DNA of 64,000 bases from Silvibacterium acidisoli. Lineage in GTDB: Bacteria; Acidobacteriota; Terriglobia; Terriglobales; Acidobacteriaceae. Below the pieces are notes generated by a model. The model had not been told where the DNA came from, made no database searches, and saw nothing but the letters and a program-made list of their open reading frames with translations. Positions 3,885 to 40,161 of the stretch are shown here, in pieces (position 1 is the first letter of the stretch; every line of letters begins with the position of its first letter). Position numbers and translations under genes: made by a program. Where the stretch lies: positions 2,418,001 to 2,482,000 of the forward strand of contig CP085323.1 in assembly GCA_022870745.1 (NCBI GenBank). The letters are read 5' to 3'.

Positions 3885-4904
3885 TTACTGGCTGGTGTAA
3901 TACCCTGGGCGAGCATTTGCCTTTAGGCCGGGTTTGTTCATCTTGATTTCGATTGCATGAAACTCATTCGGTTTCGCTGCTGGGGGCATAAAGCTGAGCG
4001 TATAGAAGGACTCGGAGGAGCGGATAACCTTCCCGATGAGTCCAGCCACATCCGAGCTCGAGCCTAGCGCCACGCCTCCACTGTTTACAGCAATTACCTG
4101 GAGGCTCAGATTGCCGAAGCTCGCGTCGCCAGGCTTCTTCACTGGTTTAAGGTATGAGCGATAGTTGACATAAAAGGGTCCTGCCGCTTCAGGCGTAAGG
4201 TTTCCCTGCGGATCGATCGCACAGAGTGTGGTGTGGCTGCTGCGCATGGCGTCAGAAAACTGCACGATCTGAGCGAATATTTTCTCTGCATCTCCCTGCG
4301 CGCTCGGACCCGGCGTTACGACCCACCCTGGGGAAATCCAGATCATTAATCTTCGCCCTTGCGTCGCATTAGGCAGCGCGAGAAGCCCCTGCAGGGCTCT
4401 CATCGGCATCTGGCTCGTAGTGCCGCGCGACCCCGCCACATTCTGTGTCGCCTGCTGATCGACGTCGAACTGCGCCAAGTCCTGCGCGAGCAGATTGCCG
4501 TCGGATGTGTACACACCCTGCATCTTCACTGATTGGCGCGTCACCACGGCCAGAGCGGTTGGATATGCAAGATGCCCGTTGTCCGCCTTAAGGTAGTCGA
4601 TGATCTGCTGCTTCGCAAACGCCAGGCGTTCACGCGTTGTGTCCGCAGCATCGAAGACCAGGATCATCGTTGTTTGACCGGTGTTGTCTTTGTCGGATCG
4701 GAATGAGGTTATGTCCTGCGGCTTTCCGTTATCGAGAATCGTGAAGTCATCTTTGGTGAGACCAGCGATCGGATCGCCATCATGGGAATCGACAGTCACA
4801 TCTATCGTGACGGGTTGGGGATCGCCCGCGAACGCGTATGTGTCTCGGGGCGTTACGAGAAAGCACAAAACAAGACAGAAACAGGCAACGCGAATCGCTC
4901 GCAT
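3885..4904 (-). CDS. Secreted VWFA-related acidobacterial protein
   Basis: 339 residues with an N-terminal signal peptide (hydrophobic core around residues 7-18, likely cut near AFA). The mature part starts with a beta-rich segment, VTVDSHDGDPIAGLTKDDF, followed by the FTILDNGKPQ signature of the VWFA-related family that is strongly expanded in Acidobacteriota. The von Willebrand A-like fold follows (ILVFDAADTTRERLAF, MIWISPGW). The Asp-x-Ser metal site of classical VWA domains is replaced by DAADT, so metal binding is uncertain. Function is unknown; two further members lie at 22,998 and 24,317. Confidence 0.8.
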   Translation of the reverse strand: MRAIRVACFCLVLCFLVTPRDTYAFAGDPQPVTIDVTVDSHDGDPIAGLTKDDFTILDNGKPQDITSFRSDKDNTGQTTMILVFDAADTTRERLAFAKQQIIDYLKADNGHLAYPTALAVVTRQSVKMQGVYTSDGNLLAQDLAQFDVDQQATQNVAGSRGTTSQMPMRALQGLLALPNATQGRRLMIWISPGWVVTPGPSAQGDAEKIFAQIVQFSDAMRSSHTTLCAIDPQGNLTPEAAGPFYVNYRSYLKPVKKPGDASFGNLSLQVIAVNSGGVALGSSSDVAGLIGKVIRSSESFYTLSFMPPAAKPNEFHAIEIKMNKPGLKANARPGYYTSQ

Positions 4905-33252: not shown

Positions 33253-33645
33253 TTGCTTCTCTCGACGGACCACCTGAACGCCCTGGCGAGAGAAGCAGTC
33301 GATTGTGCGTTTACGGTTCATAATGCGCTCGGGCCGGGCCTGCTTGAGAGCACGTATCAGGCTTGCATGGAGCACGAGCTGCGTAAGCGAGGCATCACGA
33401 TTCAGGCTCAGGTCGGATTGCCTCTTGTCTATGACACAGTCAAGCTCGAGATCGGCCATCGGATCGATCTTCTGGTCGCCGGGAATCTTATCCTCGAGAT
33501 CAAGTCGATCGAGGGAATTGCGCCGATTCATCGTGCCCAGTTGCTCTCATACCTGAAGTTGAGCGGATGCCGCTTAGGACTCTTACTGAACTTCAATGTG
33601 CCGCTGATGAAGGATGGCATCGTTCGAATGGTGAATGGGCTATGA
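33253..33645 (+). CDS. GxxExxY family protein (PD-(D/E)XK nuclease fold)
   Basis: 130 residues. The diagnostic motif is in GPGLLESTY; the PD-(D/E)XK-like catalytic set appears as HRIDLLVAGNLILEIKS, with Asp, Glu and Lys spaced as in restriction-fold nucleases. A TTG start at 33253 has no clear ribosome site. It follows gcvPB by six bases but is functionally unrelated. Directly downstream is a palindromic CGCAAAG repeat, and the pair looks like a small insertion after the gcv operon. Biological role is unknown. Confidence 0.8.
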   Translation: MLLSTDHLNALAREAVDCAFTVHNALGPGLLESTYQACMEHELRKRGITIQAQVGLPLVYDTVKLEIGHRIDLLVAGNLILEIKSIEGIAPIHRAQLLSYLKLSGCRLGLLLNFNVPLMKDGIVRMVNGL

Positions 33646-33654
33646 GGGGGAGTA

Positions 33655-33739
33655 TTCACCGCCAAGGCGCAAAGAACGCAAAGAAAAGCCGCAAAGCCCC
33701 TTTGCGAAAACTTGTCGTTCTTTGCGCCTTCGCGGTGAA
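33655..33739. repeat. CGCAAAG-type inverted repeat next to the GxxExxY gene
   Basis: 24-bp arms at 33655-33678 and 33716-33739 are inverse complements with one mismatch. Inside lies a second perfect 7-bp hairpin, CGCAAAG / CTTTGCG at 33690-33706. CGCAAAG occurs three times in the left half (33668, 33677, 33690) and its complement twice in the right. This is a nested, REP-like palindrome. Confidence 0.85.
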
Positions 33740-33770
33740 CGCCTTTAACGATCTCTAAGGGGAGAGCAGA

Positions 33771-34034
33771 ATGTCACTGCATCATCGCCGCGACGAACTG
33801 GAGAAGTTCGAATTCATGATGGGACCGTCACGCGGTAAGCTGGCGGTCTCGCTCGACATGGTGACTGACGCGCTGATCTTGATCGGCCAGCACGGAGTCT
33901 ATTGCAACTCGCAGCGGAACCCGTCGAAGCCGGCACTCGATCTTGAGACAGTCATGAATGAGTTGAATGGTGCGAAGGAACTGATTCAGTCAGTGATGGA
34001 AGAGCTGCGCCGCGAGCGCGACGCAGCTTCCTGA
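33771..34034 (+). CDS. Small helical hypothetical protein (87 aa)
   Basis: No family recognised. Mostly alpha-helical (LDLETVMNELNGAKELIQS, VMEELRRERDAAS), no signal peptide. ATG with AAGGGGAGAG upstream, a good ribosome site. Convergent with the DUF2911 gene, whose stop is two bases away. The two Cys/His-poor helices suggest a small cytoplasmic accessory protein; no function assigned. Confidence 0.65.
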   Translation: MSLHHRRDELEKFEFMMGPSRGKLAVSLDMVTDALILIGQHGVYCNSQRNPSKPALDLETVMNELNGAKELIQSVMEELRRERDAAS

Positions 34035-34035
34035 T

Positions 34036-34605
34036 TTACTTGGCAGGGGTAATCGTCACGTATTCGTCCGTGTTTTCCCAGATCAGGTGCAGCGCGAGCC
34101 GTTCATGCGGGCGCGCCTTGGCCTTCACCGGATCCAGCTTAATCTCAAACTGCTCGACCGGAGCGCTCGGCTTTGGGCCGGCTTCCATCGCAACCCGTCC
34201 CAGGTCCTGATTCTCGTTGTAGACAGTGCCCCATTGGCCGGTCTGCTTGTTGATGATGAGCTTCCAGCCGCTCTCCGAAGGCAACGAATAAACGGTGTAG
34301 GTGCCGGCGGGAACGCTCAGGTCGCCGATCTTGATATCCACAGCGGTCTTCAAGGTGGTAGCTTCATTCGCCCCGGTGCGCCAGACCTTGTCGTAGGGGA
34401 CGAGACCGCCAACGATCTGGCGGCCACGCATCGAGGGGGCGCCGTAGTCGATAGAGATAGCTTTGCCCTCAAGGGTCGCGGTGGCTTTCATAGGAGGGCT
34501 GGGGCGGGGCTTGTTGTTCTGCGCATGAACCTGGGAGGCAAACGCCAGAATTGCCACGGCAAGCGTCACCATGGGCCTGCGATTTCCGGTGATCGTTCTA
34601 CACAT
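34036..34605 (-). CDS. Secreted DUF2911 protein
   Basis: 189 residues. Signal peptide ending HAQ near residue 29, then a DUF2911 domain: ISIDYGAPSMRGRQIVGGLVPYDKVWRTGANEAT (positions about 50-85), IPAGTYTVYSLP-like segment, and a C-terminal WENTDEYVTI. Family function is unknown; members are common in Bacteroidota and Acidobacteriota. ATG has TAAGGAG upstream. Confidence 0.85.
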   Translation of the reverse strand: MCRTITGNRRPMVTLAVAILAFASQVHAQNNKPRPSPPMKATATLEGKAISIDYGAPSMRGRQIVGGLVPYDKVWRTGANEATTLKTAVDIKIGDLSVPAGTYTVYSLPSESGWKLIINKQTGQWGTVYNENQDLGRVAMEAGPKPSAPVEQFEIKLDPVKAKARPHERLALHLIWENTDEYVTITPAK

Positions 34606-34720
34606 TGGTCGAGCTCCTTACGGATTAGACGTTACGCCTTCCATAAGAGCGCGGCGGATGGCGGTCTGTCAAAATGAGCCGTGCCAGGGCAGAATGCCGT
34701 AGTATTCTATTCTTAACGAA

Positions 34721-34749
34721 CGCGCCCGTAGCTCAGCTGGATAGAGCGG
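34721..34749 (+). repeat. attL: 29-bp direct repeat and tRNA-Arg 5' fragment
   Basis: Identical to 37965-37993. Comprises acceptor 5' strand and D-arm of the tRNA; reading on, the tRNA sequence is lost after GAGCGG. Confidence 0.9.
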
Positions 34750-34820
34750 GTGAAAACCTTTCTCGCGCCCCTTCTGACAAATTTCCTGTTGTGACCGATC
34801 TGTGACAGCAGGAGAATAAA

Positions 34821-35788
34821 TTGCCCATTCGCAAGCGCGGAACTACATGGCAGGCCGATGTCATCACCGCCACCGGCACACGCACTCGTAAGCAATTCAC
34901 GACCAAGGCCGAGGCGCAGTCCTTCATCGCGTCGCACCAGGCTTCCCAAAACCCTACATCCCGGCGCGGGAAACAATCGCTCGCATCCTCGCGCCGTACG
35001 CGGCGAGCGGTACCGGCAACAGTAAGCTCGTCGCCAACGCCATCGTCGCCCACGTCGGCACGCTCAAACCTCATCAGCTTGCCCCGGCCCACATCAAAAA
35101 CATCTGTGCCGAGTGGGAAGGCCTCGCGTCGTCCACGCGGCGAACCTACGCCTCGCGGCTGAGGGCGCATCTCGTCACGCTCGGCGCTCCTTGGCAGTGT
35201 GCCGGAGCAATTCCGCATTTGGCACAGTCGAAGCCGCGCAACGTCACAGCAGCGGATGCCGAGTTTGAAGCCGTCCTGCGCAAAGCGCCGGGCTGGCTCA
35301 AGCTCACCCTGCTGCTCACGCGTTATTGCGCGTTGCGGGCAACCACGGCGCTCACCTTGACGGCTGCCGACATCAACACGGAAACGTGGCACATCCGTCG
35401 TCGAACCAAGGCGCAGATGTCCATCTCCATTCCGTGCGGCCCTCGCGTGCGCGAGATGCTGCGCTTCGCACTCCACATGGCCGAGCCAGGCCAGTATCTC
35501 GTCAACGCCCTCGGCGGCAAAGGCGACACGCCGGGCAAGCTCTACGAGAACAGCAACCACGCCATCAACAAGCTCAAACGCGATCTGAAAATCTCCGGTA
35601 AGTGGACACTCCACGACCTGCGCCGGACAGCCGCCCGCGAGCTTTACGACAACACACGCGATCTGCGCCTGGTGCAAGCCCTCCTGGGCCACGCCAACCT
35701 CGCGCAATCGCTGTGGTACCTGTCCGACGCAACACACACGCTTACAGCCGACCATCTCGAACAGGGCGGCAGAAAGGTCTACGCATGA
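34821..35788 (+). pseudogene. int: Tyrosine-type integrase, interrupted by a frameshift
   Basis: The N-terminus (TTG 34821, AGGAG seven bases upstream; RKRGTTWQADVITATGTR, an arm-DNA-binding type segment) is in one frame and runs to about 34,945. The rest is in the -1 frame from there to 35788: a core-binding region (KNICAEWEGLASSTRRTY) and a catalytic domain with Arg in CALRATTAL, HDLRRTAA, LGHANLAQ and the nucleophile Tyr nine residues after the His. All catalytic residues remain. The switch falls near the run CCCAAAACCC at 34945-34954. A single missing base, a sequencing error or programmed -1 slippage would all explain it. Confidence 0.82.
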
Positions 35789-36126
35789 CACGCACAACGA
35801 AGAAGCCGGAGAGGATCAGCGATTTCATCTACACGCCAGCCGAGCGCATGGAAACGGTCGAAGAGTACGTGGCCTATTCGATCAAAGCCCGCGAAGAGGC
35901 ACATGCGGAGGCCGTCGCGGAAGGCTTCGGCGAAAAGGATGCCGACGAGGTCGCAAACATGTCCTGGCGTTGTGTGCTGCCCATCATGTCCTCGCGCCTG
36001 GCCGTGCAGTCGTTCATCGCCTGCGTGGCCGTAGGCGCGGCACGCGGCTGGATCAAGGCCGAGGAAGCACGCGGCCTCAGCTACACGGCACAGCTTGGCA
36101 TGGCGGCGCTACGCGAGGCCAGATGA
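35785..36126 (+). CDS. Small element-encoded hypothetical protein (113 aa)
   Basis: Starts with ATGA overlap on the integrase stop. Charged, helical N-terminal part (ERMETVEEYVAYSIKAREEA), then a more hydrophobic helix (VQSFIACVAVGAARGW). No family recognised. Coupled translation with integrase and the next gene suggests a shared role in element maintenance. Confidence 0.65.
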   Translation: MTRTTKKPERISDFIYTPAERMETVEEYVAYSIKAREEAHAEAVAEGFGEKDADEVANMSWRCVLPIMSSRLAVQSFIACVAVGAARGWIKAEEARGLSYTAQLGMAALREAR

Positions 36127-36296
36127 GCAGCCCAACCGAACGCATCGCGATCATTGTGGCGCGGATCGAGGGCGTCGCGACCGAAGAGCAATTCGACGCG
36201 CTCACGCTCGAACTCTATTGGCAGGCCCGGCTCCTGCGCGACCAGGCGCAGGCAGCCAAGGCGAGTCGAAAAGCGGCGCGGAGCATGATAGCCTGA
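36123..36296 (+). CDS. Small element-encoded hypothetical protein (57 aa)
   Basis: ATG overlaps the previous stop by four bases. Predicted two-helix protein (TEEQFDALTLELYWQARLLR, then QAAKASRKAARSM). No known domain. Coding status rests on the overlap architecture and the sensible amino-acid composition. Confidence 0.55.
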   Translation: MSSPTERIAIIVARIEGVATEEQFDALTLELYWQARLLRDQAQAAKASRKAARSMIA

Positions 36297-36326
36297 CTGC
36301 ACCAAAACCAGTGCATAAGGGGGATA

Positions 36327-36351
36327 CAGAGGCAGCCGTTGGCTGCCTCTG
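36327..36351 (+). promoter_or_regulatory. Perfect 11-bp hairpin upstream of the sigma-like gene
   Basis: CAGAGGCAGCC / GGCTGCCTCTG with a GTT loop, ending six bases before the ATG at 36358, which has no Shine-Dalgarno. No T-run follows, so a plain terminator is unlikely; attenuation or translational control is inferred. Confidence 0.6.
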
Positions 36352-36357
36352 TTCGTC

Positions 36358-36732
36358 ATGCGATCCATACCGCTGTCGCTGAAGAACAAGCTGCGCCTGT
36401 ACGCGCAGCAGGCAACAAATCCGAAAATCAATGCCTCTCTGCCGAAAGCCGAAGTCCGGCAAAACCGCAACTACACACCATGGGGGCAAACGCTAGTCTG
36501 GCTCATGGACTTTGAACGCGCCCTCGAAAAGTTGTCACCGATGCAGCGCACCGTCTTGCTGCTGCACCATGGTTGCGGCTACAGCCAAGGCGAAACCGCA
36601 ATGATCGTAGGCATGTGCATGCGCACGATGCAGCGCACGGTAGCGCAGAGCGAAGCAAGATTGCTCGACGTGCTCAACGATCAGGAAGCCGGGCGGCACA
36701 TCACGCGCTGCCGGAATAGGCGGGTCCAGTGA
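36358..36732 (+). CDS. Sigma-70 region 4-like helix-turn-helix protein
   Basis: 124 residues. The segment MDFERALEKLSPMQRTVLLLHHGCGYSQGETAMIVG (about 50-85) followed by MCMRTMQRTVAQSEARLLDVL is a sigma region-4-type HTH; no region 2 is present. Such proteins act as DNA-binding regulators in phage and elements. It probably controls element genes; it could also recognise the TGTCACA array, which is a guess. Confidence 0.7.
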   Translation: MRSIPLSLKNKLRLYAQQATNPKINASLPKAEVRQNRNYTPWGQTLVWLMDFERALEKLSPMQRTVLLLHHGCGYSQGETAMIVGMCMRTMQRTVAQSEARLLDVLNDQEAGRHITRCRNRRVQ

Positions 36733-36911
36733 GACTCCTTGCAGCATCGCTCAAGGTCTGCGAACTCTGCGGCAATCTCTACGTCCGAGAGAGCGATAAC
36801 CGCGAGGCGTACTGCCCGCGTTGTAAGCCCATGCAGAAGCTCATGCCGAAGCTGAATTCCAAGCGCCGAGGCAGGCCGCCCAAGCTTAGGCCGGTGGCAG
36901 GGATGCGGTAG
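36729..36911 (+). CDS. Zinc-ribbon protein with AT-hook-like tail (60 aa)
   Basis: GTG start overlaps the previous stop (GTGA). Four Cys as CELC and CPRC form a probable zinc ribbon (residues 11-32); the C-terminus KRRGRPPKLRP contains the RGRP core of AT-hooks. Likely a small DNA-binding protein, last of the overlapping chain. Confidence 0.65.
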   Translation: MRLLAASLKVCELCGNLYVRESDNREAYCPRCKPMQKLMPKLNSKRRGRPPKLRPVAGMR

Positions 36912-37559
36912 CCACTTCGCTGCGCTCAGCCGGGGCGCTGGACGCGCCCCGAACGGCATCCTGGTAAGGTGCTCGCTTCGCTCGATCACATTCGCCCCAC
37001 GCGGCAACCGGGCGTGCTGGTGCCCCGCTCAGTCACCAGCCGCGCAAGTGGCCGCCTCGCTATCGCGTCGTCGGCCGCGCGTCTGGTGCCATCGCTGCCG
37101 TCTCTCCGCGTCCCGGCTGCCGGGTGGCCGCCATCGCTGCGGCCCCACTCCCTGCGCGCGCCTGCGGCGTGCTCAGTCGCGCCCCCGCATCGAGGGTGTT
37201 GGCCGTCTGAGCGCTGTGCACGGCGGCCATGGCTGCGCCACTTCGCCCGGCAGCCAAAACCAGTGTGTTCGGTGGCCGGGCTCGGCTTCGCCGTGCGCGT
37301 CTGTCGTGGTCGGGCTCCGGCTGCGCCGTCGCGCCCGAGGCCCACGCCCGCAACGGTCGTGTGCGCCAGCGTCCTCGCGCGTCAAGGCCGGAGCCGCTTC
37401 GCGGTGGCTACGCCAGCCTTGACCCGCTCCGGGCGCTGGCAAAGGCTCCTGGCCATCCGGGCGTGGGCTACAAACCAAAGGCAACAGCAAAAGCAAGATC
37501 CAGCCCGGCGCTGACGCGCCGGGCAGACCACCCCACCCCTACCACCCCCACCCAGGGGG
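36912..37559. other. 650-bp GC-rich region without a convincing gene
   Basis: Long open frames exist on both strands but translate to Arg/Ala/Pro-rich low-complexity chains typical of GC-rich non-coding DNA, and no start has a ribosome site. Seen in it: a perfect 7-bp GC hairpin GGGGCGC/GCGCCCC at 36932-36950, many short CTTCGC/CTGCGC-type words, and at about 37530-37555 a run of C tracts (CCCC, CCCC, CCCCC, CCC) that could form a G-quadruplex on the minus strand. It may hold an RNA gene or the element's origin or packaging site; nothing proves this. Confidence 0.5.
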
Positions 37560-37580
37560 ATGGTCACACCGGAGGCGAAT

Positions 37581-37832
37581 TTGAAGCTGCAAACGATCAT
37601 GGACAGGCAGCGCCAGAAGGCCGCAAAGCTGAGTCATACGCCGAGAAAGCCCATCAAGCGCCAGCCGCTCGAAGACTGGATGCTTTGGGTGCTGAGGCAT
37701 TCGTTAGCGGCGGCGATGGAGCGGAACGACATGGAAACAGCCAAGGAAATCAAGGCAGAAATCGAAGCCCGAAGAGCCGAACTCAAAGCCCAGAATGAAA
37801 TGCCAGCAAAAGAGGGCTGTGACAAGGCGTGA
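37581..37832 (+). CDS. Small basic element-encoded protein (about 83 aa)
   Basis: Start TTG 37581 has GGAGG just upstream; ATG 37560 and ATG 37602 are alternatives in the same frame. Basic and helical (DRQRQKAAKLSHTPRKPIKR, EIKAEIEARRAELKAQ). No family recognised. Its 3' end enters the TGTCACA array. Could be an excisionase-like or nucleoid-binding protein by size and charge only. Confidence 0.5.
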   Translation: MKLQTIMDRQRQKAAKLSHTPRKPIKRQPLEDWMLWVLRHSLAAAMERNDMETAKEIKAEIEARRAELKAQNEMPAKEGCDKA

Positions 37833-37945
37833 CAGCTTCGCGTCACAGGGCCGTCACAGAAGGCGAAATTGTGACATGGCGGAAGAGCGCTTGCAAACCG
37901 TGTCACATGCGGCTATGGTGAGAGTACGTGTCACAACGCTGTCAC
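37819..37945. repeat. Array of eight GTGAC/GTCAC motifs
   Basis: Core at 37819, 37829, 37871 (GTGACA orientation) and 37842, 37853, 37901, 37929, 37940 (GTCAC orientation; several as TGTCACA). Two more copies lie near the left end (34791 GTGAC; 34801 TGTGACA) beside the integrase ribosome site. About 0.25 copies are expected by chance in 127 bp. Best explained as protein-binding sites, e.g. integrase arm sites or a regulator. Confidence 0.75.
37891..37919 (+). promoter_or_regulatory. Putative promoter driving tRNA-Arg from the element end
   Basis: TTGCAA at 37891, 17-bp spacer, TATGGT at 37914: a sigma70-like promoter about 40 bases before the tRNA. A TGTCAC motif sits in the spacer, so a bound protein would block it. 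Confidence 0.5.
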
Positions 37946-37964
37946 AAAGACGCGCGATAAATAC

Positions 37965-37993
37965 CGCGCCCGTAGCTCAGCTGGATAGAGCGG
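37965..37993 (+). repeat. attR: 29-bp direct repeat inside tRNA-Arg
   Basis: Identical to 34721-34749; here it is the 5' part of the intact tRNA, supplied by the element on integration. Confidence 0.9.
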
Positions 37994-38042
37994 CAGCCTC
38001 CGAAGCTGTAGGTCAGAAGTTCGAATCTTCTCGGGCGCACCA
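37966..38042 (+). tRNA. tRNA-Arg (anticodon CCG)
   Basis: 77 nt including encoded CCA. Acceptor GCGCCCG pairs with CGGGCGC; D-arm GCTCAGCTGGATAGAGC; anticodon loop CTCCGAA giving CCG (reads CGG); T-arm with TTCGAAT. The 5' 28 nt belong to the integrative element's attR. Confidence 0.97.
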
Positions 38043-38049
38043 GAATTGG

Positions 38050-38076
38050 AAAAGCCGGTCTTCACGACCGGCTTTT
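38050..38076. terminator. Bidirectional terminator between tRNA-Arg and ndk
   Basis: AAAAGCCGGTC / GACCGGCTTTT, perfect 11-bp stem with a 5-base loop and flanking A/T runs. Serves the tRNA (+) and ndk (-). Confidence 0.88.
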
Positions 38077-38097
38077 GTGTTTCTGCTTCAGGAACAG

Positions 38098-38514
38098 CTA
38101 AACCAATTCGTAACCAGCGAAGAAGTAGCCGATCTCGAAAGCTGCGGTATCCTCGGCGTCGGAGCCGTGGATGGCGTTTTCTTCGATGGATGCGGCGAAC
38201 TTCTTGCGGATGGTGCCTTCCTCGGCGTTGGCCGGGTTGGTGGCGCCCATCAGCTTGCGCAGGTCGGCGATGGCGTTGTCCTTCTCGAGCACCATGGGGA
38301 AGATCGCTCCCGAAGACATGAAGTCGGTCAGTCCGCCGAAGAACGGGCGCTCTTTGTGAACGTAGTAGAAGCCTTCGGCCTGGGTCTTCGAGATCGAAAT
38401 CTTCTTGATGGCGACAATCTTGAATCCGGCCTTCTCGATCTCGGCGAGGATGGCTCCGGTATGGCCCTTGCGGACCGCGTCTGGCTTGATGATGCTGAAG
38501 GTGCGTTGGGACAC
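38098..38514 (-). CDS. ndk: Nucleoside diphosphate kinase
   Basis: 138 residues, the usual length. Transfers the gamma phosphate between nucleoside triphosphates and diphosphates through a phospho-histidine, His116 in NAIHGSDA. N-terminal [14 protein letters not shown] is the family start. Cytoplasmic. Confidence 0.96.
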
Positions 38515-38572
38515 CTGTGGTTCTCCTTGAATTGCGAATAAAGTCTTATTTCCAGTGTAGAGCAGAAGTGCG

Positions 38573-38953
38573 TTACCAGATCACCCGCGGATAGTGGTCT
38601 CGAATATCTGAATCCGCGGACAACAACGGAGCAAGCCCATTTGCCTTGGCCTGGGCAACGATCGTGCGATCAAACGGGTCGCGGGTCCACTTTTCATCCA
38701 GCGCGATTTCTGCGACTCGATGAAAAGGCAGATCGCAAAGTCGAAGACCAAACTCATGTTCAACCTTCAGGAAGATTTCCCGTGACGAAAATGCGATGCG
38801 GTTTACTTCGCGAAGGTACTCAAGCTCCAGAAGCACCATAGGCGAAATCATGAGGTCTGCGGCTTCGAGGGGAGCCTTGGCTTTCGCTGAGATACGGGAT
38901 GGATCGCCCTGAGCCAGCCACACGACAACATGCGTGTCGAGGTAGGCGATCAA
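38573..38953 (-). CDS. PIN-domain toxin (VapC-type)
   Basis: 126 residues. PIN fold RNase: Asp6 in [11 protein letters not shown], Glu in [10 protein letters not shown], and Asp residues in [14 protein letters not shown]. Overlaps the antitoxin gene by four bases (ATGA). Expected to cut RNA when free of the antitoxin. Confidence 0.9.
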
Positions 38954-39201
38954 AGCTCTGACCAGTCCTTCTCCCAGGCACGTTCCATTTCTTCCTGCAA
39001 TGACGAAGTGTCAGCGTCGTAACCCGGCGTGATGACGTCGAGCCTGGTCATGCGGTCGAGGCGTCCTTTCGGCTGGTCTTCCGGAGCGACGCGAAAGCGG
39101 CGGCCCTTATAGGAAACCCAAACCTCGCTGCCTTCCATCGCTTTGGAGACCAGGTCGAAGAGCTCCTGACGAAATTGGGTGATCGTGACTTCCATGTACA
39201 T
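38950..39201 (-). CDS. Phd/YefM-type antitoxin
   Basis: 83 residues. N-terminal DNA-binding half (VTITQFRQELFDLVSKAMEG, VWVSYKGRRFRV) as in Phd/YefM antitoxins, and an acidic C-terminal tail ([16 protein letters not shown]) that would wrap the PIN toxin. Start at ATG 39201 or 39195. TGTAC half-sites overlap and precede the start. Confidence 0.85.
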   Translation of the reverse strand: MYMEVTITQFRQELFDLVSKAMEGSEVWVSYKGRRFRVAPEDQPKGRLDRMTRLDVITPGYDADTSSLQEEMERAWEKDWSEL

Positions 39202-39222
39202 TTATGAGTGTACGCCCTGTAC
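39196..39222 (-). promoter_or_regulatory. Possible operator of the toxin-antitoxin operon
   Basis: GTACA (39196-39200) and TGTAC (39209-39213) form an inverted repeat, with a further TGTAC at 39218-39222. It covers the antitoxin start region, where Phd-type repressors usually bind. Confidence 0.45.
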
Positions 39223-39237
39223 GCCAACAGGGCAATA

Positions 39238-39269
39238 AAAAGCGCGGCCCGCATTGAAGCCGCGCTTTT
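39238..39269 (-). terminator. Terminator of sucCD
   Basis: AAAAGCGCGGC / GCCGCGCTTTT with a 10-base loop and A/T flanks, 17 bases past the sucD stop. Confidence 0.85.
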
Positions 39270-39285
39270 GTTGATACTGCGGTAG

Positions 39286-40161
39286 TTACGCCTTGCCGAT
39301 CACCCGGGCCAGCGTCTCGCCGATTTCGGCCGGCGACTGGACGACGTGAATGCCGGCTTCGGTCAGCGCTTTCATCTTCTCCGCGGCCGTGCCCTGGCCT
39401 CCGGAGATGATGGCACCGGCGTGGCCCATGCGGCGGCCTGGAGGCGCGGTCTGTCCGGCGATGAAGCCGACGACCGGCTTCTTCACGTGAGCCTTCACAT
39501 ACTCGGCGGCAGCTTCTTCGGCGGTTCCGCCGATTTCGCCGATGAGGATGATGGACTCGGTCTCAGGATCCTCGTTCAGAAGCTTGAGCGCATCGATGTG
39601 GGTAGTCCCTACAATTGGATCGCCACCGATGCCGATCGCCGTCGACTGGCCGATTCCGCGCTGCGTGAGCTGGTAGACGGCCTCGTAGGTCAGGGTTCCC
39701 GAGCGGGAGACGATGCCTACCGAGCCTTCCTTGTGGATGCGGCCGGGCATGATGCCGATCTTGGCCTTTCCGGGCGAGATGACGCCGGGGCAGTTGGGCC
39801 CGATGAGCACGGAGTCGGAGGTCTTGAGCACGCTCCAGACCTTGACCATGTCGTTCACCGGAATGCCTTCGGTAATGGCGATGATCAGCGGCAGCTTGGC
39901 TTCGTTGGCTTCGAGAATCGCATCGGCCGCGAACGGCGGCGGAACGAAGATGACGGTCGCGTTGGCGCCGGTCTTCTCGACGGCCTCTTCGACGGTGTCG
40001 AATACCGGCCAGCCCTCGTGCGTGGTGCCGCCCTTGCCGGGCGTGACTCCGCCGACGACCTTGGTGCCGTACTCGGCGCAACCCTTGGCGTGGAAGGTGC
40101 CTTCCTTACCGGTGATGCCCTGGACGATGAGGCGTGTGTTTTTATCGACGAGAACTGCCAT
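39286..40161 (-). CDS. sucD: Succinyl-CoA synthetase alpha subunit
   Basis: 291 residues. CoA-binding Rossmann domain ([15 protein letters not shown]), then the ligase domain with the phospho-histidine His247 in [10 protein letters not shown]. Converts succinyl-CoA, ADP/GDP and phosphate to succinate and NTP in the TCA cycle. Its ATG overlaps the sucC stop by one base (TAATG). Confidence 0.96.

Follow-up and report, generated by a model that had tools for sequence, protein, structure and literature searches.

How does a small element lodged at a tRNA gene obtain a complete integrase when its integrase gene is divided between two reading frames? The question is raised by a 3.27-kb locus in the soil acidobacterium Silvibacterium acidisoli, which we analyzed within a stretch of 64,000 nucleotides of contig CP085323.1 (here called the window). 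A preliminary description, made from the sequence alone, had proposed that the 5' half of tRNA-Arg(CCG) holds a minimal integrative element, a proposal that tRNA prediction, terminal repeats, and an empty site in a related genome all support. We propose further that the element belongs to a family of minimal integrative elements (about 2.7 to 4.8 kb) of Acidobacteriota whose tyrosine integrase is made by programmed -1 frameshifting, a reading that sequence comparison leads us to hold with a probability of roughly 85%.

The element lies between two letter-perfect direct repeats of 29 bp on the plus strand (34721 to 34749 and 37965 to 37993). Among the best 20 of 22 families of direct repeats in positions 33500 to 39500, none other was equally long or exact, which confirms the earlier claim of exact 29-bp repeats around 3.27 kb. 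ARAGORN predicts a single tRNA in the window, the intact tRNA-Arg(CCG) at 37966 to 38042 (plus strand; Rfam tRNA score, 70.3 bits), and the repeat consists of bases 1 to 28 of this tRNA plus one base 5' of it. Because the only tRNA stands downstream of the element's right end, the right repeat is the 5' part of the intact gene, and the left repeat, beside the integrase, is a fragment of the 5' half (acceptor strand and D-arm).

In a same-genus genome (G001, locus L047), the site is occupied by one tRNA copy with a single occurrence of the repeat, and both flanks are collinear. Window positions 34196 to 34452, 34708 to 34749, and 37959 to 39196 map in order to positions 2973 to 2717, 2446 to 2405, and 2439 to 1143 of L047, a comparison made for the window element only. 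Since the tRNA is single-copy and the flanks are in order in G001, the window element is an insertion of about 3.24 kb. A relative with an empty tRNA site was the check that the preliminary description had set for its own reading, and that reading withstands it. In the host genome, a single contig of 5.36 Mb, the full element is present once, and three further matches are tRNA genes only. Judged by its att repeats, its empty target site, and the active-site residues given below, it appears to be a tyrosine-integrase integrative element.

The preliminary description was right to call an integrase but overlooked its division between two open reading frames (ORFs) on the plus strand, frame 0 encoding the arm-binding domain and the -1 frame the core. 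The 0-frame ORF (113 amino acids [aa]; 34821 to 35162) starts with TTG, 6 nt downstream of a likely ribosome-binding site (AGGAG; 34810 to 34814), and comprises the arm-binding domain and an unconserved tail; it would be the product made without frameshifting. It matches a PHROG integrase family (E = 7.7e-6), and Pfam gave no significant match for it. The core-binding and catalytic domains are encoded in the -1 frame at 34955 to 35788 (Pfam PF00589, E = 7.1e-17); this frame is open from 34892 and has no start codon ahead of the core. Directly after the arm domain, and in 0-frame phase, lies the slippery heptamer A_AAC_CCT (34949 to 34955), where a frameshift would give a putative trans-frame protein with a counted length of 322 aa. 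As read from an alignment, the window core has R132, K156, H224, R227, H250, and Y259, which we take to be the catalytic residues and which complete the R-K-HxxR-H-Y active-site pattern. K156, H224, R227, and H250 are invariant in 13 aligned cores, and R132 and Y259 are present in at least 90% of them.

The best relatives in a first search, G029 and G055 (37 and 34% identity), have the same split at the same domain border; this recurrence makes a mutation confined to the window copy unlikely and prompted a broader search. A profile built from 13 cores (A4; match threshold, E ≤ 1e-30) had matches in 27 of 398 family genomes and 20 of 399 class genomes, overlapping samples that combine to 35 genomes with matches. 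With profile A3, matches better than 1e-40 in a phylum sample of 396 genomes were confined to genomes of family f1, which includes the window genome, Granulicella rosea DSM 18704 (G257), and Acidobacteriaceae bacterium dw_441 (G119). Among the matches listed for a collection of 84,980 species genomes, close relatives were found only in Acidobacteria (13 of 25 loci), and the next match had an E value of 8e-7.

An arm domain was present in 38 of the 39 loci scored (all except G630), and the core was at -1 to it in 37 of these 38. The exception, G731, is by eye likewise at -1 just beyond the arm, and a second frame change follows. Our counts leave out G630, G731, the second tandem copy of G257, G587/L062 (whose contig begins inside the core), and L057 (a run of N); they keep G858 despite two stops in its core, and loci under two identifiers (e.g., L053 and G257) were counted once. 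G731 and G858 are decayed members, seen at L173 and L189. In a phylogenetic tree, the 37 members form one side of a branch with 100/100 support, opposite 25 other recombinases from the phylum, and the window copy falls in a sub-clade of seven (support, 100/99).

These results bear on one alternative, that the window copy is a dead island in which an ordinary mutation shifted the frame of the integrase. The frameshift signals of this copy are locally weak, as described below, and members in decay do exist, as the second frame change of G731 and the two core stops of G858 illustrate. However, the identical -1 split recurs at the same domain border in 37 of 38 arm-bearing members across a deep tree, where random mutations would hit both frames and varied places. 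In the window gene, moreover, arm and core parts are each open, and catalytic-type residues are present. We therefore regard a dead island as improbable, and an ordinary pseudogene was rejected because the split runs through the whole clade.

At the junction, 30 of the 37 members have an in-phase heptamer of the form X_XXZ_ZZN. Counting one per member, these are A_AAA_AAA (12 members), C_CCA_AAA (11), C_CCA_AAC (3), G_GGA_AAA (2), A_AAA_AAC (1), and the A_AAC_CCT of the window (1); where several were in phase (G119, palsa287, G604, G696, and G732), one was taken by a fixed motif order. Heptamers in the other two phases occur in 3 and 5 members, excluding the AAAAAAG that overlaps each run of seven A's. 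The motif type changes along the tree while the -1 phase is kept, a pattern that selection for slippage would give. The other seven members have junction tetramers, namely C_CCT (G398, G235b, G571, and G720), T_TTT (G490), and T_TTC (G618 and G633, in which the -1 frame opens just two codons 5' of the tetramer). For comparison, the relevant passages of PMC4066793 list U_UUC, U_UUU, and C_CCU among the tetramers that are shift-prone in Escherichia coli with a stimulator and give C_CCA_AAG as the strongest heptamer there.

Stimulatory signals accompany these motifs. Of the 30 heptamer-bearing members, 14 have a tetramer resembling a Shine-Dalgarno (SD) sequence (AGGA, GGAG, GAGG, or AAGG) between positions -20 and -5, compared with 798 of 8,130 (9.8%) same-phase windows of the same genes. 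The 50 nt starting at the 4th nt after the slip site fold more stably than other windows of the same genes (mean z score, -1.34; n = 30; t test, P = 4e-9). Two features expected of programmed frameshifting, a conserved -1 ORF overlap and an in-phase slippery motif, are present, and the expected stimulators (an SD-like motif upstream and structure downstream) are present at the family level, with weak signals in the window copy.

A run of seven A's at the junction in 12 of 37 members would also suit slippage during transcription rather than translation. In contrast, the C_CCA_AAA of 11 members and the A_AAC_CCT of the window contain no long homopolymer, and the SD-like motifs and hairpins favor ribosomal slippage, so transcriptional slippage seems quite unlikely. 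Alternatively, the arm and core could be separate proteins that form a split integrase, the core being started by translational coupling, as overlapping ORFs are common in bacteria and, in 8 of 37 members, an ATG or GTG of the core frame precedes the core-binding domain. Yet neither codon is found there in 29 of 37 members, 27 of 37 lack even a TTG, and separately translated proteins would give no reason to keep in-phase slippery heptamers and hairpins. We consider this arrangement highly improbable.

Several observations weigh against programmed frameshifting and temper our confidence in it. The background frequency of Z_ZZN is 5.2% per codon, so that over a junction of ~20 codons one tetramer is expected by chance, and seven members have a tetramer only. 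The best fold begins 3 to 9 nt after the heptamer in only 17 of 30 members, and most single hairpins are unexceptional compared with shuffled sequences (13 members). In six ungapped members, a 5-bp helix from the 7th nt has two-sided changes at 3 of 5 pairs, against 0 of 214 control windows, but the six were chosen after looking, and control windows at ungapped offsets need not be homologous. In all 25 control recombinases, an ATG or GTG precedes the profile position used to score the core frame, but these controls are lower-scoring matches from the search that gave the members, and many have no arm domain of this type. More generally, the 37 rows are related, and P values therefore overstate their independence. 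One member (G852, locus L063) lacks the first catalytic arginine in the alignment.

The remaining objections concern the window copy itself. It has no SD-like motif, and its hairpin has a z score of -1.22 relative to gene windows yet +0.1 relative to dinucleotide shuffles. Its heptamer class (ZZN = CCN) is less shift-prone in E. coli, where the sister motif A_AAC_CCA is one of three not shift-prone at all, according to the part of PMC4066793 that treats these motifs. With no SD-like motif and a fold unremarkable against shuffles, slippage in the window copy is supported mainly by kinship with the other members.

The place of the slip site within the protein was examined on a structural model. 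An AlphaFold2 (AF2) model of the arm domain has a beta-beta-beta-alpha order (predicted local distance difference test score, 83.6), with the slip site at the end of its helix. The model aligns with the arm domain of the Tn916 integrase (1bb8; Z = 4.2; root mean square deviation, 1.8 over 45 residues) and with an AP2 domain (1gcc; Z = 5.2). The top structural matches are mitoribosomal chains (Z = 6.0), and Foldseek alone gave no significant match for the model. For both reasons, and given the modest Z scores, the resemblance to Tn916 and AP2 structures is suggestive only.

End repeats of 15 to 55 bp, or a tandem unit, were found for 20 of the 37 members and delimit elements of 2.75 to 4.78 kb. 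Repeats of at least 15 bp at a plausible distance were accepted, except in G858, where the two 15-bp repeats are separated by 1.6 kb and were excluded. Among 16 other members, four (G511b, G622, G704, and G1020b) had more than 6 kb of downstream sequence with no repeats or only 13-bp repeats, and the remaining twelve, without clear ends, had at most 3.4 kb available downstream. In Granulicella rosea (L152/L053), two tandem copies are identical over 3,548 bp, lie 3,527 bp apart, and are accompanied by three 21-bp att copies, an arrangement that lends indirect support to excision as a circle (attP) and reintegration.

The targets differ among members. The window element duplicates the 5' part of tRNA-Arg(CCG), and G705 has the first 53 nt of a tRNA-Met (duplication at L194:1505-1577 and 4572-4624). 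In G119 the 3' part of tRNA-Arg(TCT) is duplicated, and in G029 it is the 3' end of a protein gene. Therefore, insertion into the 5' half, which the preliminary description had emphasized, is real in the window but is not a rule of the family, as G119 and G029 show. Because G705 is also inserted on the 5' side, the family gained or retained this kind of insertion on at least two occasions.

Short repeats that may serve as arm-type sites lie near both ends of the window element. A motif scan located two TGTGAC sites at the left end, at 34790 and 34801 (34790 to 34806, plus strand), and eight sites of the form TGTGAC, GTGACA, TGTCAC, or GTCACA at the right end (37818 to 37945, strand not assigned), starting at 37818, 37829, 37842, 37853, 37870, 37901, 37929, and 37940. 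On either strand, TGTGAC occurs 7 times in 156 bp at the right end, compared with 32 times in the whole window. Short repeats are likewise concentrated at the ends in 17 of the 20 bounded members, with motifs that vary: GTGTCC occurs at least 4 times in 11 members, TGTCAC at least 3 times in the window element, G882, and G1020a, and GTGACC at least 5 times in G696, G720, and G732. The end motif is frequent in the interior as well in two members, G852 and G604.

Downstream of the integrase, the window element carries a few small plus-strand genes. The start of the first, orfB (113 aa; 35785 to 36126), overlaps the integrase stop in an ATGA; the gene is conserved in the family and its product is predicted to form four helices. 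It matched no Pfam or PADLOC family, gave no convincing NCBIfam match, was unmatched in plasmid records, and its predicted model had no significant match in the PDB. A 57-aa ORF that matches no family (36123 to 36296) overlaps the orfB stop. Next come a sigma-70 region 4-like protein of 124 aa (36358 to 36732; PF08281, 31.8 bits, cut-off 25.7) and a 60-aa ORF (36729 to 36911) with a CxxC/CxxC pattern, an AT-hook-like tail (RRGRPPK), and sub-threshold matches only. A GC-rich region without a convincing gene (36912 to 37559; 66 to 76% GC in 300-bp windows) then separates these genes from a 90-aa ORF (37560 to 37832) whose coding status is uncertain and which clusters with no protein of any other member. 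Numerous short CGCTTCGCTCG-like inverted repeats lie within the GC-rich segment. At 37504 to 37540, a sub-threshold Rfam match to Acido-Lenti-1 RNA (22.8 bits, cut-off 37), with a hairpin loop, GCGCUGACGCGC, that fits the family consensus, was taken as chance, as it is below the cut-off and absent from seven other loci searched.

Some of this content recurs across the family. The orfB family is the gene overlapping the integrase stop in 17 members, and more broadly the stop overlaps the next start (NTGA) in 33 of 37 members, 35 of the stops being TGA, for which 3 in 4 would be expected to do so by chance. The sigma-70 region 4-like protein is found in 9 members including the window element, the other 8 being assigned by sequence similarity only and not by Pfam. 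Two further assignments (G629a and G629b), among the 11 that had clustered, were dropped as low-complexity matches. Of 10 bounded elements checked, 9 have a GC-rich peak (69 to 82% GC in 300 bp) in their distal part, L051 being the exception. In genome SZAS-3, the orfB genes of L055 and L059 are 97% identical and the integrase cores only about 47%, a contrast that hints at elements having exchanged genes.

Among the eight window proteins scanned, we found no capsid, replication, transfer, or packaging family, no relaxase or mating-pair family that would indicate an integrative and conjugative element (ICE) or an integrative and mobilizable element (in both cases for the window copy only), and no transposase family above cut-off. 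With its PF00589 tyrosine recombinase, the element thus does not show the DDE transposase that marks IS1/IS3 insertion sequences. An integrase without capsid, replication, or transfer genes, tiny overlapping genes, and a sigma region 4-like gene had all been reported in the preliminary description and agree with these results. Its zinc-ribbon/AT-hook gene survives as a small Cys-rich ORF with an AT-hook-like tail, but all family matches are sub-threshold. Profile searches of the small proteins, which it had also proposed, placed the sigma-70 region 4-like protein above its cut-off and left orfB and the 57- and 60-aa ORFs without a family.

The small size, the tRNA targets, the sigma-like gene in 9 members, and the tandem copies in one genome are also features that a phage satellite or prophage remnant might have, packaged by a helper that the sigma-region-4-like protein or the GC-rich region would serve to hijack. 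However, no packaging, capsid, or replication family was found in the window element, the G. rosea integrase core matches only distant phage integrases, none covering 80% of the core, and IMG/VR yielded weak matches only. This origin seems unlikely, though less so than the other alternatives considered. Against 28 phage and 95 plasmid records, the G. rosea core found only integrases with less than 60% identity; of the IMG/VR scans, one was empty and two had weak matches only (best, 2e-12). These distant matches in phage, plasmid, and IMG/VR collections agree with the earlier impression that the element fits no recognized family.

Returning to a minimal integrative element with a frameshifted integrase, slippage and its rate, excision, the transfer route, and the roles of orfB and the sigma-70 region 4-like protein are matters that we infer, and we envisage the following course. 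Ribosomes would begin in frame 0 and translate the arm-binding domain; some of them would slip back one base at the slippery site directly after it, aided by a downstream hairpin in many copies and by an upstream SD-like sequence in about half. The slipped ribosomes would continue in the -1 frame through the core-binding and catalytic domains and yield a low level of trans-frame integrase, and those that do not slip would yield the arm-binding domain alone as the default product. Both the free arm domain and the integrase would recognize the arm-type repeats at both ends, where the arm domain may compete with the integrase or assist it. Recombination between att sites would then insert the element, moved by one tyrosine integrase.

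Since the target is the 5' half of the tRNA gene, the right end of the element would have to supply the tRNA promoter, and by the same geometry the tRNA's own promoter region, which stays 5' of the left repeat, would point into the integrase. No sigma-70-like site turned up between 34600 and 38120 in a simple scan for promoters, and the idea of a promoter swap thus rests on geometry. The tRNA of G705, moreover, is oriented away from the integrase, and a promoter swap therefore cannot be general in the family. In IS1 and IS3, the product of the first ORF restrains or redirects the enzyme, and by analogy the short product of these elements may restrain the integrase. We tentatively suggest, at somewhat short of even odds, that the frameshift is a switch of directionality and dosage: abundant arm protein would occupy the ends and antagonize the rare integrase or redirect it as an excisionase does, and insertion into the 5' half would swap promoters at each integration and excision.

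Two features stand outside the element. Neighboring minus-strand ORFs at 38573 to 39201, beyond the tRNA, presumably encode a PIN-type toxin and a Phd-like antitoxin. To the left lies an ORF at 33253 to 33645, which we take to encode a GxxExxY-family protein; beyond it, positions 33655 to 33739 contain a 29-nt inverted repeat (90%).

A programmed frameshift is reportedly also present in the Tec2 tyrosine recombinase of Euplotes, which Doak and colleagues are said to have described in 2003. We know of no bacterial-type -1 heptamer with an SD-like motif and hairpin in Tec2. Tec2 resembles our family, as read here, in that a mobile element has a programmed frameshift in its gene for a tyrosine recombinase, and differs in belonging to a ciliate transposon; a passage of PMC5405496 cites the ciliate Tec2 tyrosine recombinase with its programmed frameshift. 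Insertion sequences of the IS1 and IS3 types, in the sections of PMC4066793 and PMC5009743 that treat them, have two overlapping ORFs, the catalytic part being made through -1 frameshifting, with the same kinds of slippery motifs, the same SD-like and hairpin stimulators, and a low enzyme level as the likely purpose. In contrast, those elements have a DDE transposase and terminal inverted repeats, whereas the present family has a tyrosine recombinase and site-specific att sequences and adds arm-type sites and accessory genes.

As in the tRNA-gene integrase islands covered by Islander, described in part of PMC4383910, the window element has att direct repeats, a restored tRNA, and an integrase near one end. 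It differs in the frameshift-dependent integrase that we propose, in the size of bounded members (2.7 to 4.8 kb), in the duplication of the 5' half in the window, and in that no replication or transfer family was recognized in the window copy. For ICEMlSymR7A, a passage of PMC11963761 states that the programmed frameshift of fseA is required for excision and transfer; there the frameshift yields a transcription activator, and here it would yield the integrase itself. For ICEKp1, the tRNA promoter drives int when the element is integrated and an end promoter does so when it is excised, as shown experimentally in the part of PMC13023037 concerned; in our element, promoter switching would follow from geometry, with the 5' half duplicated. 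In the open-access literature, we found no bacterial tyrosine integrase made by frameshifting, subscription papers and preprints being mostly uncovered. The word integrase is absent from PMC4066793, PMC3711429, and the first 300,000 characters of PMC5009743, and the relevant passages of PMC11924767, PMC8627217, and PMC9641780 contain nothing on frameshifted integrases. The family is apparently undescribed and apparently combines a known kind of element, the integrase island, with a form of control known from insertion sequences.

Control over tyrosine integrases normally lies with transcription, excisionases, and host factors. A clade of integrases completed only by ribosomal slippage would, if our reading is true, add a new layer of control on site-specific integration and a natural convergence with insertion sequences. 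Annotation would label such an integrase a pseudogene or two fragments, which may explain why such elements have been overlooked. As the slip site lies between the arm-binding and catalytic domains, the role of arm binding becomes directly testable, and if the frameshift does act as a switch, one gene would encode an integrase plus its own regulator. Being very small for integrase-bearing islands, these elements are suited to asking how little a mobile element needs, and they also suit the study of how such elements spread without recognized transfer genes.

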